Positions 36,950 to 41,903 of a stretch of 64,000 bases of DNA are shown here, one piece after another. This stretch comes from Alphaproteobacteria bacterium MarineAlpha5_Bin5 (GTDB lineage: Bacteria > Pseudomonadota > Alphaproteobacteria > HIMB59 > GCA-002718135): positions 124,001 to 188,000 of the forward strand of contig PTKZ01000001.1 of the NCBI GenBank assembly GCA_002938205.1, in the 5' to 3' direction. The notes under the pieces were generated by a model. It did not search any database and was not told where the DNA came from. It worked only from the letters and a program-made list of their open reading frames with translations. The position numbers were made by a program, and so were the translations under genes. The stretch's first letter is position 1. Every line of letters starts with the position of its first letter.

Positions 36950-38134
36950 ATGCTTTTTTCTGTTTTAAAAAATATTAAATTGAATGGTAGTCTTGAAATA
37001 ATAGATTCAAAAAATTGCATTCATAAATTTGGATCAAATAATCCAACAGTAAGAATAAAATTTACCAACAAATCAATTGAAAAGAAACTTTTTCGAAATC
37101 CTGGCCTATATTTTGGCGAAGGTTATATGAACAAAGAGATAATAATTAAAAAGGGATCCATAGAACAATTGGTTGATTTAGTTACTTCCTGCTACGATGA
37201 TTTTATTAAACATAATAAGATATATAAATATTATGAAAAATTTTCTTCGTTCTTCAAAACGTTCCAACAATTAAATGAATTTGTTAATTCCAAGAAAAAT
37301 GTTGCTCATCATTATGACTTAAATGAAGAATTATACCGTTTATTTTTAGATAAAGATATGCAGTATTCTTGTGCTTATTATCATAATCAAAACATAGGTT
37401 TAGAACAGGCTCAAATTGATAAAAAAAATCACATAATTAATAAGCTGCAAATTTCTGAAAATATGAAAGTCTTAGATATAGGTTGTGGGTGGGGAGGAAT
37501 GGCAATAGAAATAGCAAAAAAAACAGGAGCTAATGTAAAAGGTATAACACTTTCAAAGAACCAAATGCTAACAGCTTCTAAAAGAGCAAAAGAAGAAGGT
37601 TTATCTGATAGAGTGAAATTTCAATTACAAGACTATAGAAATGAAACTGATCAATATGATCGAATTGTTTCTGTTGGAATGTTTGAGCATGTTGGAGTTA
37701 AATATTTTAAAACTTTTTTTAAGAAAACTTATGATTTACTAAATGATAGTGGTGTTTTCTTATTACACACAATAGGTCAGAGAGGAGTTCCGACTGCAAC
37801 TAGTCCTTGGATAAGAAAATATATTTTTCCAGGAGGCTATATTCCTTCATTATCTGATATTATTAAAGATTGTGAAAAATTAAATATCAATATAACTGAT
37901 ATAGAAGTATTACGACTGCATTATGCACACACACTTGCTGATTGGTATAATAATGTTAAAAAAAATAAAGATAAAATTATACAGATGTTTGATGAGCGTT
38001 TTTTTCGCATGTGGGAATTTTATTTATTAGCAAGTAAATATTCTTTTATTAATATGGGTAATGTAGTTTTTCAGATTCAAATTGCAAAAAATATACAAAA
38101 TTTGCCTTTAACAAGAAATTATATTTATAATTGA
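36950..38134 (+). CDS. cfa: Cyclopropane-fatty-acyl-phospholipid synthase family methyltransferase
   Basis: A 394-residue SAM-dependent enzyme that adds a methylene to unsaturated acyl chains of membrane lipids. HHYDLNEELYRLFLDKDMQY near 119 is the family entry motif, VLDIGCGWGGMAIEIAK near 176 binds SAM, and SVGMFEHVG near 241 lies at the active site. The N-terminal 110 residues form the lipid-binding part. A related lipid-methylating activity cannot be excluded. Confidence 0.92.
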   Translation: MLFSVLKNIKLNGSLEIIDSKNCIHKFGSNNPTVRIKFTNKSIEKKLFRNPGLYFGEGYMNKEIIIKKGSIEQLVDLVTSCYDDFIKHNKIYKYYEKFSSFFKTFQQLNEFVNSKKNVAHHYDLNEELYRLFLDKDMQYSCAYYHNQNIGLEQAQIDKKNHIINKLQISENMKVLDIGCGWGGMAIEIAKKTGANVKGITLSKNQMLTASKRAKEEGLSDRVKFQLQDYRNETDQYDRIVSVGMFEHVGVKYFKTFFKKTYDLLNDSGVFLLHTIGQRGVPTATSPWIRKYIFPGGYIPSLSDIIKDCEKLNINITDIEVLRLHYAHTLADWYNNVKKNKDKIIQMFDERFFRMWEFYLLASKYSFINMGNVVFQIQIAKNIQNLPLTRNYIYN

Positions 38135-38190: not shown

Positions 38191-39231
38191 ATGCAGCAAA
38201 GTTTAAATCATTATATTTTAAGAGCAGGTTTGTTTTTAGCAATAATATTTATTGTGATAGTTTTAATTTATCCTGTTTTACAATCTGCATTTTTATCGAA
38301 TATTTTTATAAATATTATAATTTTAGGAGCTTTAGCACTTGGTATAATATTTAATTTATTTAAGTTAAATCAATTAAGTGTAGATTATAGTTCATTAGTC
38401 AATTTTGATATTAGTAAATCTCCAAAATCATTTGTTAATTCTAAAGGAAATTTAAAAAATATAATTTCAGATATGAAACAATTAGAGGGTCGTTTTGTTT
38501 TTAAAAGTTCATCAGTTAATAGATTAATAGAAAATAGCGATATGACACTATCAAATATACGTGAAACTTCTAGATACTTAGTGGGGTTGTTAGTTTTTCT
38601 AGGACTGCTTGGTACATTTTGGGGGTTATTAAAAACAATAGGATCTGTTGGGAATGTTATAAGCGGCTTAGGTATAGATGATACAAATGTAGCAGGTTTT
38701 TTTAATTCTTTGAAAGATGGTTTAAATGCGCCACTTCAAGGAATGAGCATTGCTTTTAGTAGTTCCCTTTTAGGTTTAGCAGGATCTTTGATTTTAGGTT
38801 TTATGGATATTAACTTAGGTCAAGCACAAAATAAATTTAGTCAATTTTTTGAAAAGATTTTAAATAAAAATTCAATACCAGATATTCTTAATCAGTCATC
38901 TTCAGATAATATTACAGCAACAGCAATTCAAAAAATTTATGATAATTTAGACAATATAGTATTTGCTCTTAAAGAAACTAGTCAAAATCAGAATCAAATC
39001 TATTCTCACCTTAAGGAAATTAATAAACAAATTAAACAAATCAATAATAATTCTGTAGATTTAGATAAAAAATTATCAAATTTCCTTTCCACACAACTTA
39101 ATATACAAACAAGCATTCTGCAACTTGTTGAACAACTTAATAAAAATGGTTTATTTGATAAAAAAACAAAAAAATTATTTGAGAATTTAGATAAAGGCAT
39201 AAATCATCTTATTTCTAAGAAAAAAAAATAA
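38191..39231 (+). CDS. MotA/TolQ/ExbB-like proton-channel protein
   Basis: A 346-residue membrane protein with two N-terminal helices (about 10-60) and a second pair around residues 126-215. The second region contains SRYLVGLLVFLGLLGTFWGL and LQGMSIAFSSSLLGLAGSL, typical of the TolQ/ExbB/MotA channel core. The C-terminus is coiled-coil-like. It is paired, 3 nt apart, with an OmpA-domain protein, as in alphaproteobacterial envelope motor pairs outside flagellar loci. No flagellar genes are nearby, so a role in envelope energisation or peptidoglycan linkage is more likely than motility. Confidence 0.85.
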   Translation: MQQSLNHYILRAGLFLAIIFIVIVLIYPVLQSAFLSNIFINIIILGALALGIIFNLFKLNQLSVDYSSLVNFDISKSPKSFVNSKGNLKNIISDMKQLEGRFVFKSSSVNRLIENSDMTLSNIRETSRYLVGLLVFLGLLGTFWGLLKTIGSVGNVISGLGIDDTNVAGFFNSLKDGLNAPLQGMSIAFSSSLLGLAGSLILGFMDINLGQAQNKFSQFFEKILNKNSIPDILNQSSSDNITATAIQKIYDNLDNIVFALKETSQNQNQIYSHLKEINKQIKQINNNSVDLDKKLSNFLSTQLNIQTSILQLVEQLNKNGLFDKKTKKLFENLDKGINHLISKKKK

Positions 39232-39234
39232 ATA

Positions 39235-41358
39235 ATGGTATCTCGGTCTTTAAGAAATAGACTTGGCGAATCAACAAATATTTGGCCAGGATTTGTTGAT
39301 GTTTTAGCAACATTGCTAATAGTTATAATATTTGTTTTAATGGTTTTTACTGTATCCCAAATATATTTAAGTGATGCGATTTCAGGAAGAGATAAAGCTC
39401 TTCAAGATTTACGTAACCAGATTGATCAATTATCAAAAATTTTAACTGTTGAGATATCGGAAAAAGAAGATGCTTTATCAAGTTTATCTCAAACTCAATC
39501 TGAATTAGGAATGACAAAAAAAAATCTTGAATCTCAAAGACTTTTAAGCGATGAACTGCAAACAGATATATCAAAAAAACGTTCTGAATTATTTGTACAA
39601 GAACAAAACATATTGGCATTATCTGAACAAATTACAAAGCTTTTAAATGAATTAAGAATAGTTTCAAATGCATTAGAAACTTATGAAGGCATTGATAATG
39701 CCGCATTAGTTACAGAAGGACTAGGTGAAAGAATAAATAAAGCTTTAGCAACTCGTATTGATCAACTCAAGTCCTTAAATCTCAAGTTAGATGAAACAAA
39801 TCAAAAATTAGCTGTAAGTGAAAGTAATTTGAAACAAAAAGTAACTGAACTTAATATCTTGAATGATAAATTGACACAAAATGAAAGTGAATTAGAATTA
39901 AAAATTAAAGAATTAAATGTCTTGAATGATAAATTGACACAAAATGAAAGTGAATTAGAATTAAAAATTAAAGAATTAAATGTCTTGAATGATAAATTGA
40001 CACAAAATGAAAGTGAATTAGAATTAAAAATTACAGAATTAAATGTCTTGAATGATAAATTGACACAAAATGAAAGTGAATTAGAATTAAAAATTACAGA
40101 ATTAAATGTCTTGAATGATAAATTGACACAAAATGAAAGTGAATTAGAATTAAAAATTACAGAATTAAATGAAAAAAATAATGACTTACTAGCAATTAAT
40201 CAAAGTTTAGGAATAGAAGATGGTGATTTAGCGGCTCAGTTAAATGCGATTCAAAATAAAAATGATGAATTGTTGCAATTAAACAATAATTTATTGGAAT
40301 CAAAAAAAGAAACAGAAATAACTCTTCAGTTATTAGAAAAAGTAAATACTGAACTAACTTTACGAGATGAAGAACTGCAAAACCAAATTTTGCAGTATAA
40401 AGAGCTAATGAGTGATTTATTAGCAATTAATGATACTTTGGGATTAAATGATGTAACTCTACAAGAACAGCTTGACGCAATAAGATTCAAGAATCAAGAA
40501 TTGGTTAGATTAAATGAAAATCTAATTGAAAAAGATAGCACTATATTTGACTTAAGAGGGAAAATTATAGAATTGAATGATATTCTATCAATTTCAGAAG
40601 AACAACAGTTAGCTCAAAAATCACAAATACTAACACTGAAAAAAAATATTCAATCTTTAGAGGATTCAAGCAAAAATGAAAAAGAAATATCCTCTAAACA
40701 ACTTCAGGAAATGGAAATGCGCGCATCCCTAACCCTTGAACAAGTGGCTAGTCTTACTGATGAAATTGATAAGTTAAAAAATGAAATTTTAACTTTAAAT
40801 CGTGCCTTATTATCCAGTGAGAAAGAAACTGCTTCGAAAAATTTAGAAATTGAAGCTTTAGGAGAAAGATTAAACAAAGCACTTACATCGCAAATATTTG
40901 AATTACAAAAATATAGATCTGAATTTTTTGGAAAATTGCAATCTTTACTAGGGGACCGTGAAGACATCAAGGTTGTCGGAGATAGATTTATTTTTCAATC
41001 TGAATTATTATTTGATTCAGCTTCTGCAAATCTTCAGAAAATTGGAAAAGAAAAATTGAAAGAAATTGGAATCACTTTAAAAGAAACTACTAGTAAAATA
41101 CCAACAGATATTGATTGGATTATTCAAGTAGAAGGTCATACGGATAAAAGACCTATCAATACCACTCTATATCCATCAAATTGGGAACTGTCTTCTGCAA
41201 GAGCTAACTCAGTTTTGAAATTATTATTAGATTTAGGATTTGAGCCTAATAGATTAGCAGCAGCTGGCTATGGAGAGTTTTATCCAATAAGTAATGGTGA
41301 TACAGAAAGGGATTTCCAGCAAAATAGAAGAATAGAATTGAAATTAACTTCAAGATAA
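39235..41358 (+). CDS. MotB/OmpA-type peptidoglycan-binding protein with long repeat-containing coiled coil
   Basis: A 707-residue protein partner of the channel subunit. A single membrane helix (VDVLATLLIVIIFVLMVF, about 22-39) is followed by about 500 residues of predicted coiled coil and a C-terminal OmpA domain (VEGHTDKRP, YPSNWELSSARANSVL, GDTERDFQQNRRIELKL). The segment before it, GDREDIKVVGDRFIFQSELL, is typical of this alphaproteobacterial family. The coiled coil contains five near-identical 21-residue repeats (about 209-312) and degenerate longer repeats. It would span the periplasm and bind peptidoglycan. Repeat number may set its reach. Confidence 0.88.
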   Translation: MVSRSLRNRLGESTNIWPGFVDVLATLLIVIIFVLMVFTVSQIYLSDAISGRDKALQDLRNQIDQLSKILTVEISEKEDALSSLSQTQSELGMTKKNLESQRLLSDELQTDISKKRSELFVQEQNILALSEQITKLLNELRIVSNALETYEGIDNAALVTEGLGERINKALATRIDQLKSLNLKLDETNQKLAVSESNLKQKVTELNILNDKLTQNESELELKIKELNVLNDKLTQNESELELKIKELNVLNDKLTQNESELELKITELNVLNDKLTQNESELELKITELNVLNDKLTQNESELELKITELNEKNNDLLAINQSLGIEDGDLAAQLNAIQNKNDELLQLNNNLLESKKETEITLQLLEKVNTELTLRDEELQNQILQYKELMSDLLAINDTLGLNDVTLQEQLDAIRFKNQELVRLNENLIEKDSTIFDLRGKIIELNDILSISEEQQLAQKSQILTLKKNIQSLEDSSKNEKEISSKQLQEMEMRASLTLEQVASLTDEIDKLKNEILTLNRALLSSEKETASKNLEIEALGERLNKALTSQIFELQKYRSEFFGKLQSLLGDREDIKVVGDRFIFQSELLFDSASANLQKIGKEKLKEIGITLKETTSKIPTDIDWIIQVEGHTDKRPINTTLYPSNWELSSARANSVLKLLLDLGFEPNRLAAAGYGEFYPISNGDTERDFQQNRRIELKLTSR
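39859..40170 (+). repeat. In-frame 63-bp tandem repeat, five copies
   Basis: Copies begin at 39859, 39922, 39985, 40048 and 40111, each 63 bp (21 codons, unit starting LNDKLTQNESELELKI). They are almost identical at the DNA level. The main difference is a Lys/Thr codon (AAA/ACA) that separates early from late copies, indicating recent duplication. Because the unit is a multiple of three, copy-number changes would keep the frame. Confidence 0.95.
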
Positions 41359-41399: not shown

Positions 41400-41903
41400 A
41401 TGAAAACTATACTCATATTAATTGGCATATTAATATTTTCTAGCAAAATTTTTGCAGCTTGTGATGATCAGCCAAAAAATGAAGTAGATTGGACAAATTG
41501 CAATTTTGTAGAAAATTTAGATTTAAAAGGTGTAGGCTTAGCAAAAGCTGAAATGTCAGGAGTCAATCTTTCTTTAGCAAATCTTGAAAAATCGCAACTA
41601 AATAATTCTAATCTTTCAGTAGGGAATTTCATTTTTTCTAACTTTAGTAATTCAAATTTATATGCATCTAACTTACAAGGAGCTAACTGCAATAACGCTA
41701 ATTTTGAAAATGCAAATTTAGCAAAGGTGAATTTTGAGGGTGCAAATTTATTTGCATCTTCCTTTAAAGGGGCTAATTTATTTGAAGCTAATTTTTTGGG
41801 GGCAAACATTTCTGGAGCTATTTTTGAAGAGGCTAATTTATCAGGTGCTATTTGGGTAGATGGTAAAAAATGTGCCCTTGGATCAATAGGTACTTGTAAT
41901 TAA
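41400..41903 (+). CDS. Secreted pentapeptide-repeat protein
   Basis: A 167-residue protein with a signal peptide (about 1-20, ending SSKIFA) and then repeated A(N/D)Lxx units from residue 40 on (ANLEKSQLNNSNLS, GANLFEANFLGANISGA), which fold as a right-handed square helix. Four Cys, two at each end (CDDQPKNEVDWTNC and CALGSIGTC), probably form disulfides that cap the helix in the periplasm. Function of such proteins is varied and not predictable here. Confidence 0.85.
   Translation: MKTILILIGILIFSSKIFAACDDQPKNEVDWTNCNFVENLDLKGVGLAKAEMSGVNLSLANLEKSQLNNSNLSVGNFIFSNFSNSNLYASNLQGANCNNANFENANLAKVNFEGANLFASSFKGANLFEANFLGANISGAIFEEANLSGAIWVDGKKCALGSIGTCN

Follow-up and report, generated by a model that had tools for sequence, protein, structure and literature searches.

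A coiled-coil stalk of variable length and mostly constant heptad phase in a putative non-flagellar motor protein of Alphaproteobacteria, carrying a recent in-frame minisatellite

We analysed a 64,000-nucleotide stretch of DNA (the window) from Alphaproteobacteria bacterium MarineAlpha5_Bin5 (GTDB order HIMB59; assembly GCA_002938205.1, contig PTKZ01000001.1, positions 124,001 to 188,000), in which a gene pair encodes a MotA-like membrane protein (A subunit) and a protein whose membrane helix and OmpA-type domain are separated by a very long coiled-coil stalk (B subunit). In most of the family members sampled, the coiled coil keeps one heptad phase from end to end at any length, as shown statistically below, and the window gene carries a fresh minisatellite in a stalk where copy number changes between near-identical relatives. 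Our best reading, to which we give a probability of about 0.6, is that the B subunit provides an in-phase coiled-coil rod for a non-flagellar motor of the 5:2 type, free in length, fixed in phase and lengthened by slippage. Positions refer to the window, and the features of the B gene are as follows.

39235..41358, + strand: B subunit, 707 residues, with membrane helix, long coiled-coil stalk and OmpA-type peptidoglycan-binding domain (NF006543, PF00691)
39283..39363, + strand: membrane helix WPGFVDVLATLLIVIIFVLMVFTVSQI, residues 17-43, with Asp22 as candidate proton-carrying residue (alignment)
39364..40950, + strand: coiled-coil stalk, residues 44-572, 529 residues (AlphaFold helices, hydrophobic-pair blocks)
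39688..39720, + strand: predicted helix break 1, residues 152-162, GIDNAALVTEG (AlphaFold, local predicted local distance difference test (pLDDT) below 50)
39819..40171, + strand: 63-bp in-frame minisatellite, 5.6 copies (Tandem Repeats Finder (TRF), unit comparison)
40207..40227, + strand: predicted helix break 2, residues 325-331 (AlphaFold, low confidence)
40438..40458, + strand: predicted helix break 3, residues 402-408 (AlphaFold, low confidence)
41008..41328, + strand: OmpA/MotB-type peptidoglycan-binding domain, residues 592-698 (PF00691, Foldseek)

Stalk length was measured from an N-terminal anchor, the WPGFVD motif with which the membrane helix starts, to a C-terminal anchor, GDRF at the OmpA domain, and amounts to 565 residues in the window. 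Within the order, 22 of the 23 distinct anchor distances (264–565 residues) equal 5 modulo 7, as do 107 of 108 distinct genes; distinct lengths or genes are given because the order set of 130 includes some genomes twice. This set excludes loci with a split B gene (L086 and L090, by our locus handles) or with no B gene bearing both anchors (L042, L046, L053, L054, L102, L103, L127, L150 and L153). We also sampled 142 Alphaproteobacteria genomes, mostly one per family, of which 92 matched NF006543 at E ≤ 1e-30; 86 of 90 class loci were counted, the remaining four (L193, L223, L243 and L253) being without an anchor. A few of these genomes are represented at two places, and the class loci omit the places of G185, G292 and G299 together with some second places. 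Class stalks span 163–775 residues (a range of 612), with lengths modulo 7 of 5 in 61 proteins, 2 in 11, 1 in 8, 6 in three, 3 in two, 4 in one and 0 in none. Such a concentration on one phase (61/86) has a binomial p of 2e-32 when kinship is ignored, and 5e-14 among distinct lengths (31/52). Stalk lengths thus differ by multiples of seven both in the order (22/23) and in the class sample (61/86), and 19 of the 25 out-of-phase proteins are off by 3 residues in one direction or the other (p = 1.6e-5), a shift as large as that of a stutter or stammer in a coiled coil.

The periodicity was also visible when no modulus was imposed. When periods between 2 and 20 residues were scanned, coherence was highest at 3.50 (R 0.82), lesser maxima lay at 2.33 and 7.0, and among whole moduli 7 and its multiples stood out, others being only modestly above expectation. 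Hydrophobic residues in the 61 in-phase proteins preferred positions 0 and 4 at every tested distance from the N or the C anchor, save in the stretch from 45 to 25 residues ahead of the C anchor, in which position 1 exceeded position 0. For the window protein, the best hydrophobic pair with 0/+4 spacing lay at positions 0 and 4 from the N anchor in 10 of 13 blocks.

By parsimony on a tree of conserved blocks (167 distinct sequences), length changed 101 times and phase 25 times; a null in which phases were dealt randomly per distinct length gave a mean of 74 and a minimum of 62 phase changes in 300 draws. Length and phase changes numbered 26 and 1 in the order and 75 and 24 in the class sample. 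Among 56 tree-derived pairs of unequal length, 35 differed by a multiple of seven, 15 were off by 3 residues either way and six fell otherwise. Flagellar MotB of the same class served as a control: it has the same domain order, with an Asp-bearing membrane helix, a linker and an OmpA domain, yet its linker showed no heptad phase, the 29 proteins dividing among the seven phases as 6, 5, 4, 4, 4, 3 and 3 (R 0.105 at 3.5). These proteins come from 30 loci among the best-scoring matches (75 of 133 genomes matched; L267 was without anchors), with GHTD in place of GDRF as C anchor and lengths of only 167–207 residues. The same preference appeared in alignment gaps. Across the stalk and OmpA domain of 24 tree-derived B-protein pairs (identity down to 0.70), nine of 11 gaps were multiples of seven and the other two, of 8 and 6 residues in one pair, sum to 14, whereas in 184 pairs of neighbouring genes (49,895 columns) one of nine gaps was such a multiple. 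Slippage between stretches of heptad-periodic DNA probably supplies the units, though it does not by itself explain a phase kept over class-level divergence.

The minisatellite is by far the strongest tandem repeat in the window. TRF on the whole 64 kb returned 39819-40171 as the top array (period 63 bp, 5.6 copies, 96% matches, indels 0, score 613), the runner-up scoring only 72, and the array lies in frame within the open reading frame at 39235-41358 (+), so that each 63-bp unit corresponds to 21 residues, or three heptads. A previous reading of the letters alone (the sequence-only reading) had described five nearly identical in-frame 63-bp units in the stalk of a MotB/OmpA-type protein and had taken their near-identity as a sign of recent expansion, and both statements held. 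Counted in its register, the five units at 39859-40173 differ from the second by 0, 0, 1, 1 and 3 bases, and the 63 bases preceding 39859 by 24. In codon register, four full units (39880-39942, 39943-40005, 40006-40068 and 40069-40131) are identical save for one A/C change, which gives Lys in units 1 and 2 and Thr in units 3 and 4, while the flanking units on either side have 14 mismatches apiece. This ordered variant fits stepwise recent duplication. The copy number is that of the assembled sequence. The contigs of two relatives, L042 (5118-5897) and L046 (6045-6737), terminate at the array site, therefore short-read assembly breaks there and copy numbers from short reads in this lineage may be too low.

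Copy number at this site varies among relatives; the sequence-only reading had named an invariant number in all relatives as the observation that would speak against it. Between two conserved stalk landmarks, the array-bearing segment measures 40+21k residues, with lengths of 40, 61, 82, 103 and 145 (k = 0, 1, 2, 3 and 5), the window having 145 (k = 5); other lengths are 75, in ten rows, and 33, in L050/L151 (one genome under two handles). Some genomes stand twice in this table, and the first landmark is missing from one row and the second from 15. L040 and L047 differ by exactly one 63-bp unit (623 and 644 residues) between flanks that are 98.7–99.0% identical, so that copy number differs between close relatives, as in a variable-number tandem repeat, and farther down the stalk L069 and L057, at 97–98% flank identity, are one 84-bp unit apart. 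These comparisons are between relatives, no second genome of the window's species being among the loci gathered; the nearest loci are mostly from uncultured Alphaproteobacteria, including two MarineAlpha5 bins. The earlier proposal that strains could vary stalk length without breaking the protein, 63 being divisible by 3, stands for variation among relatives. We dropped its reasoning from frame alone: length data, arrays and gaps favour 21 nt, and 63 matters as 3 × 21 because stalk length moves in heptads.

In other species of the family the gene has arrays of its own, different in sequence. Across 194 distinct B genes TRF found 47 arrays, the unit being a multiple of 21 nt in 36, another multiple of 3 in seven and neither in four. 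All 11 arrays with at least 90% matches and at least two copies had units that are multiples of 21 nt (21, 63, 84 and 105 bp), in a subset picked after seeing the table that becomes 11 of 13 when the copy limit is dropped. As observations on individual loci, the longest stalks belong to L241 and L255 (775 and 761 residues between anchors, both 5 modulo 7), and L241 has two separate 84-nt arrays with about 80% matches. The B genes of L086 (6020-7877) and L090 (6020-7793) are split across two overlapping frames within the stalk, reflecting either genuine frameshifts, the stretch being prone to repeats, or faulty assembly.

By family, the B protein scores 343.9 bits against a curated cut-off of 305 for NCBIfam NF006543 (PRK09039.1-2, 'peptidoglycan-binding protein') and falls below the cut-offs of the other four PRK09039.1 models. 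Its C-terminal domain scored 60.2 bits against a cut-off of 27.2 for PF00691 (OmpA), and Foldseek placed it with the periplasmic domains of MotS, PomB and MotB (best E 1.1e-9). Asp22 is invariant in 26 of 26 aligned sequences, and we take it to be equivalent to the proton-carrying Asp of MotB, ExbD and TolR. AlphaFold modelled the protein with helices at residues 17-151, 163-324, 332-401, 409-451 and 455-572, at low confidence (pLDDT 68.6, predicted template modelling score (pTM) 0.30). Measured across predicted break 1, the N anchor and the next landmark lie 157 residues apart in 13 of 14 segment classes and 150 apart in the remaining one, L050/L151.

The gene directly upstream encodes the presumed partner.

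38191..39231, + strand: A subunit, MotA/ExbB/TolQ/ZorA-like membrane protein, 346 residues (PADLOC, Foldseek)

Searches of Pfam and NCBIfam with the A subunit returned nothing at E 0.001, and a sequence search of the PDB gave one chance-level match (E 0.51). A PADLOC scan of the A and B proteins matched the A subunit to ZorA models (best E 4.7e-13). Its predicted model, of low confidence (pLDDT 67.1, pTM 0.44), has ZorA, ExbB, TolQ and MotA chains as nearest neighbours, with ZorA and ExbB on top in Foldseek (best ZorA, E 1.1e-3, probability 1.00). In structural alignment the best score was Z 11.9 for ExbB chain 9ddo_B (root-mean-square deviation 4.6, 190 residues aligned), where the tool advises 13 for helical bundles and an unrelated designed bundle reached Z 9.9. 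Of the 84 class loci for which 700 nt or more of upstream sequence was available, 81 have a MotA-like gene ahead of the B gene. The genome has one match to PF01618, located elsewhere, and none to the flagellar MotB model NF006548 at E 1e-15. We rejected a flagellar role given this absence and the scores of the B protein, which lie far below the flagellar cut-offs (36.8 against 277 bits for MotB NF006548, 104.4 against 283 for MotD and 97.3 against 264 for MotS). Given the A-subunit matches, the invariant Asp, the upstream MotA-like gene and the lack of a flagellar match, the pair probably encodes an ion-driven motor of the 5:2 type, like ExbBD, TolQR, MotAB and ZorAB, and not a flagellar one.

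Under the preferred reading, the coiled coil of the B subunit would be very long, would presumably consist of two parallel chains and would run from the membrane helix to the OmpA domain. Slippage or unequal recombination between heptad-periodic DNA would gain or lose whole heptad modules (1, 3, 4 and 5 heptads in the fresh arrays), and modules of 7n residues would survive because they alter neither the hydrophobic seam nor the way in which all that follows them is oriented. Other in-frame indels would mostly be purged, save where the shift amounts to 3 or 4 residues and could be absorbed as a stutter or stammer, as the observed lengths suggest, and the 63-bp minisatellite would be a recent event of this kind in this genome. 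Phase may be under selection since the stalk would form one continuous coiled coil linking the motor to the wall-binding head. In the boldest form of this reading, a stiff stalk would transmit the membrane motor's torque or pull to the cell wall. Extended to the whole class, this would make it a motor 'drive shaft', in which selection holds the rotational phase from proton motor to head while length floats over more than 600 residues, and minisatellites tune length by adding 1, 3, 4 or 5 heptads per step; we offer this version tentatively and consider it rather doubtful.

Several observations weigh against the preferred reading. The phase is not universal: 25 of the 86 class proteins are out of phase, the shortest stalks (160–219 residues) are in phase in just 17 of 31 cases, and the sole out-of-phase genome of the order, L050/L151, has 491 residues (1 modulo 7), with an extra 24-residue stretch near the stalk end in the alignment. 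Within the window protein the best hydrophobic pair is off the main frame in the blocks starting at 420, 462 and 546 (residues 420-503 and 546-581), and similar frame shifts occur in all five other proteins examined. In the array region hydrophobic frequency is 1.0 at position 0, 0.59 at position 2 and 0.33 at position 4; position 2 beats position 4, therefore the repeat does not form a textbook two-position core. Degenerate 21-nt TRF arrays may reflect heptad coding, not duplication. On the structural side, the B model is of low confidence and has helix breaks within the stalk, the dimer is a presumed one, and the fold match of the A subunit is weak, no Foldseek E being 0.001 or lower. The 5:2 stoichiometry, ion flow and torque are assumed from family likeness, and coiled-coil folding alone can yield heptad-stepped indels in a protein with no transmission role.

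This last point leads to the main competitor, a passive tether in which the heptad steps reflect the generic stability of parallel coiled coils and neither torque nor force is transmitted. Precedents come from signalling proteins, in which, according to excerpts of the respective papers, linkers of PadC, a phytochrome-linked diguanylate cyclase, have lengths differing by multiples of seven in 54% and by −4 in 38% (PMC9587094), and chemoreceptor length classes are set by heptad number (PMC6759762). A merely stable rod would be expected to give the same statistics as ours, in which flagellar MotB is the one control by protein type. A tether could, however, hold flexible linkers of free length, as the flagellar MotB of the class seems to, whereas here phase is mostly kept over 163–775 residues and 81 of 84 loci retain a motor-type A gene next to the B gene, so that we regard a tether as possible without favouring it. 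Less probable still, and in our view unlikely, is mutational bias as the whole cause, with heptad coding creating homology spaced by 21 bp and slippage making 21-bp multiples free of any selection on phase. The units of the fresh arrays (21, 63, 84 and 105 bp) are what such bias would produce, and 11 gaps in 24 B-protein pairs against nine in 184 neighbour pairs suggest a high indel rate in the stalk. Over class-level divergence, however, ordinary small indels should randomise phase, as flagellar MotB suggests, and the 61 of 86 proteins that hold phase, together with 19 of 25 deviants of stutter or stammer size, argue against it.

False expansion or collapse of the array during assembly is very improbable. 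At 353 bp the array exceeds a typical short read, two relatives' contigs end at it, and many relatives bear single-cell-style isolate names and are presumably amplified single cells; against this stand the ordered Lys/Thr variant among units, the differing arrays in the same gene of other species and a phase result that is independent of any array. The sequence-only reading had further suggested that the stalk is a length ruler between inner membrane and peptidoglycan, a role that its physical length does not support. With a helical rise of 0.1485 nm per residue in a coiled coil, residues 44-572 as a straight predicted helix would extend for ~79 nm, several times the gap between inner membrane and peptidoglycan. 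A stalk so much longer than the width of the periplasm would have to bend, fold back on itself or run at an angle. Anchor distances within the order (264 to 565 residues) differ by up to 301 residues, or ~45 nm, and the step from k = 0 to k = 5 at the array site accounts for 105 residues, or ~16 nm. A straight ruler is thus unlikely, and we assign very little weight to the stalk setting this distance at all, even though coiled coils can set envelope spacing: from the portions of the study cited, Lpp+14 and Lpp+21, with two and three extra heptads, make the envelope of E. coli 3 and 4 nm wider (PMC5736177). Gammaproteobacterial TolA offers another parallel, being typically far longer than the width of the periplasm and so having excess reach, as described in part of a recent paper (PMC12204202).

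Compared with known systems, the in-phase motor rod that we favour combines familiar parts in an unusual proportion. The window protein lies above the cut-off of the PRK09039-type model NF006543, which has 350 positions, while the protein has 707 residues and a fresh minisatellite. Titles and abstract starts of open-licence papers yielded no function or length rule for the PRK09039 family, and none of them was on this stalk; the family name turned up in a paper on a phage genome and in one on blue-light genetics. With ExbBD, TolQR, MotAB and ZorAB the pair shares the invariant Asp where the B membrane helix begins and, at the far end of the B subunit, an OmpA domain resembling those of MotS, PomB and MotB; it differs in its stalk of ~529 residues. 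Passages of a survey of 379 MotB homologues report that plug and linker are typically missing in non-flagellar members, and the word 'coiled' is absent from its main text (PMC12505986). In sections of a review of 5:2 motors, coiled coils are said to anchor the dimers, and the torque that they withstand is speculated to limit such motors (PMC9389320). The heptad-stepped PadC linkers and chemoreceptors act in signalling, whereas here the stalk presumably belongs to a motor and lies in the periplasm, can reach hundreds of residues and gains whole heptads through fresh minisatellites. Lpp+14 and Lpp+21 likewise show a periplasmic coiled coil tolerating whole-heptad lengthening, although, from the same portions of that study, they are engineered, belong to a lipoprotein and do set membrane spacing (PMC5736177). 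The result is a measurable rule, namely that stalk length is largely heptad-quantised across the sampled class and the flagellar MotB linker is not. It makes the choice between a rigid shaft for torque or pull and a mere tether testable, with a natural series of stalk lengths for doing so, and shows how long coiled coils can be extended step by step with their register intact.

The surroundings of the gene pair are partly lineage-specific. Directly downstream of the B gene lies one further gene.

41400..41903, + strand: pentapeptide-repeat protein with a signal-peptide-like start, 167 residues (PF00805, 75.2 bits)

Counting motifs, we found a similar protein behind the B gene at all 70 nearest loci, at none of 33 loci from the sister family (a set that includes two genomes twice) and at none of the 29 class loci with at least 400 nt of downstream sequence. 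From this distribution the protein is a candidate lineage-specific accessory and possibly a third component. On the other side, a cyclopropane fatty acid synthase-like gene (36950-38134) precedes the A/B pair, and a relative of it is present in 76 of 78 related loci.

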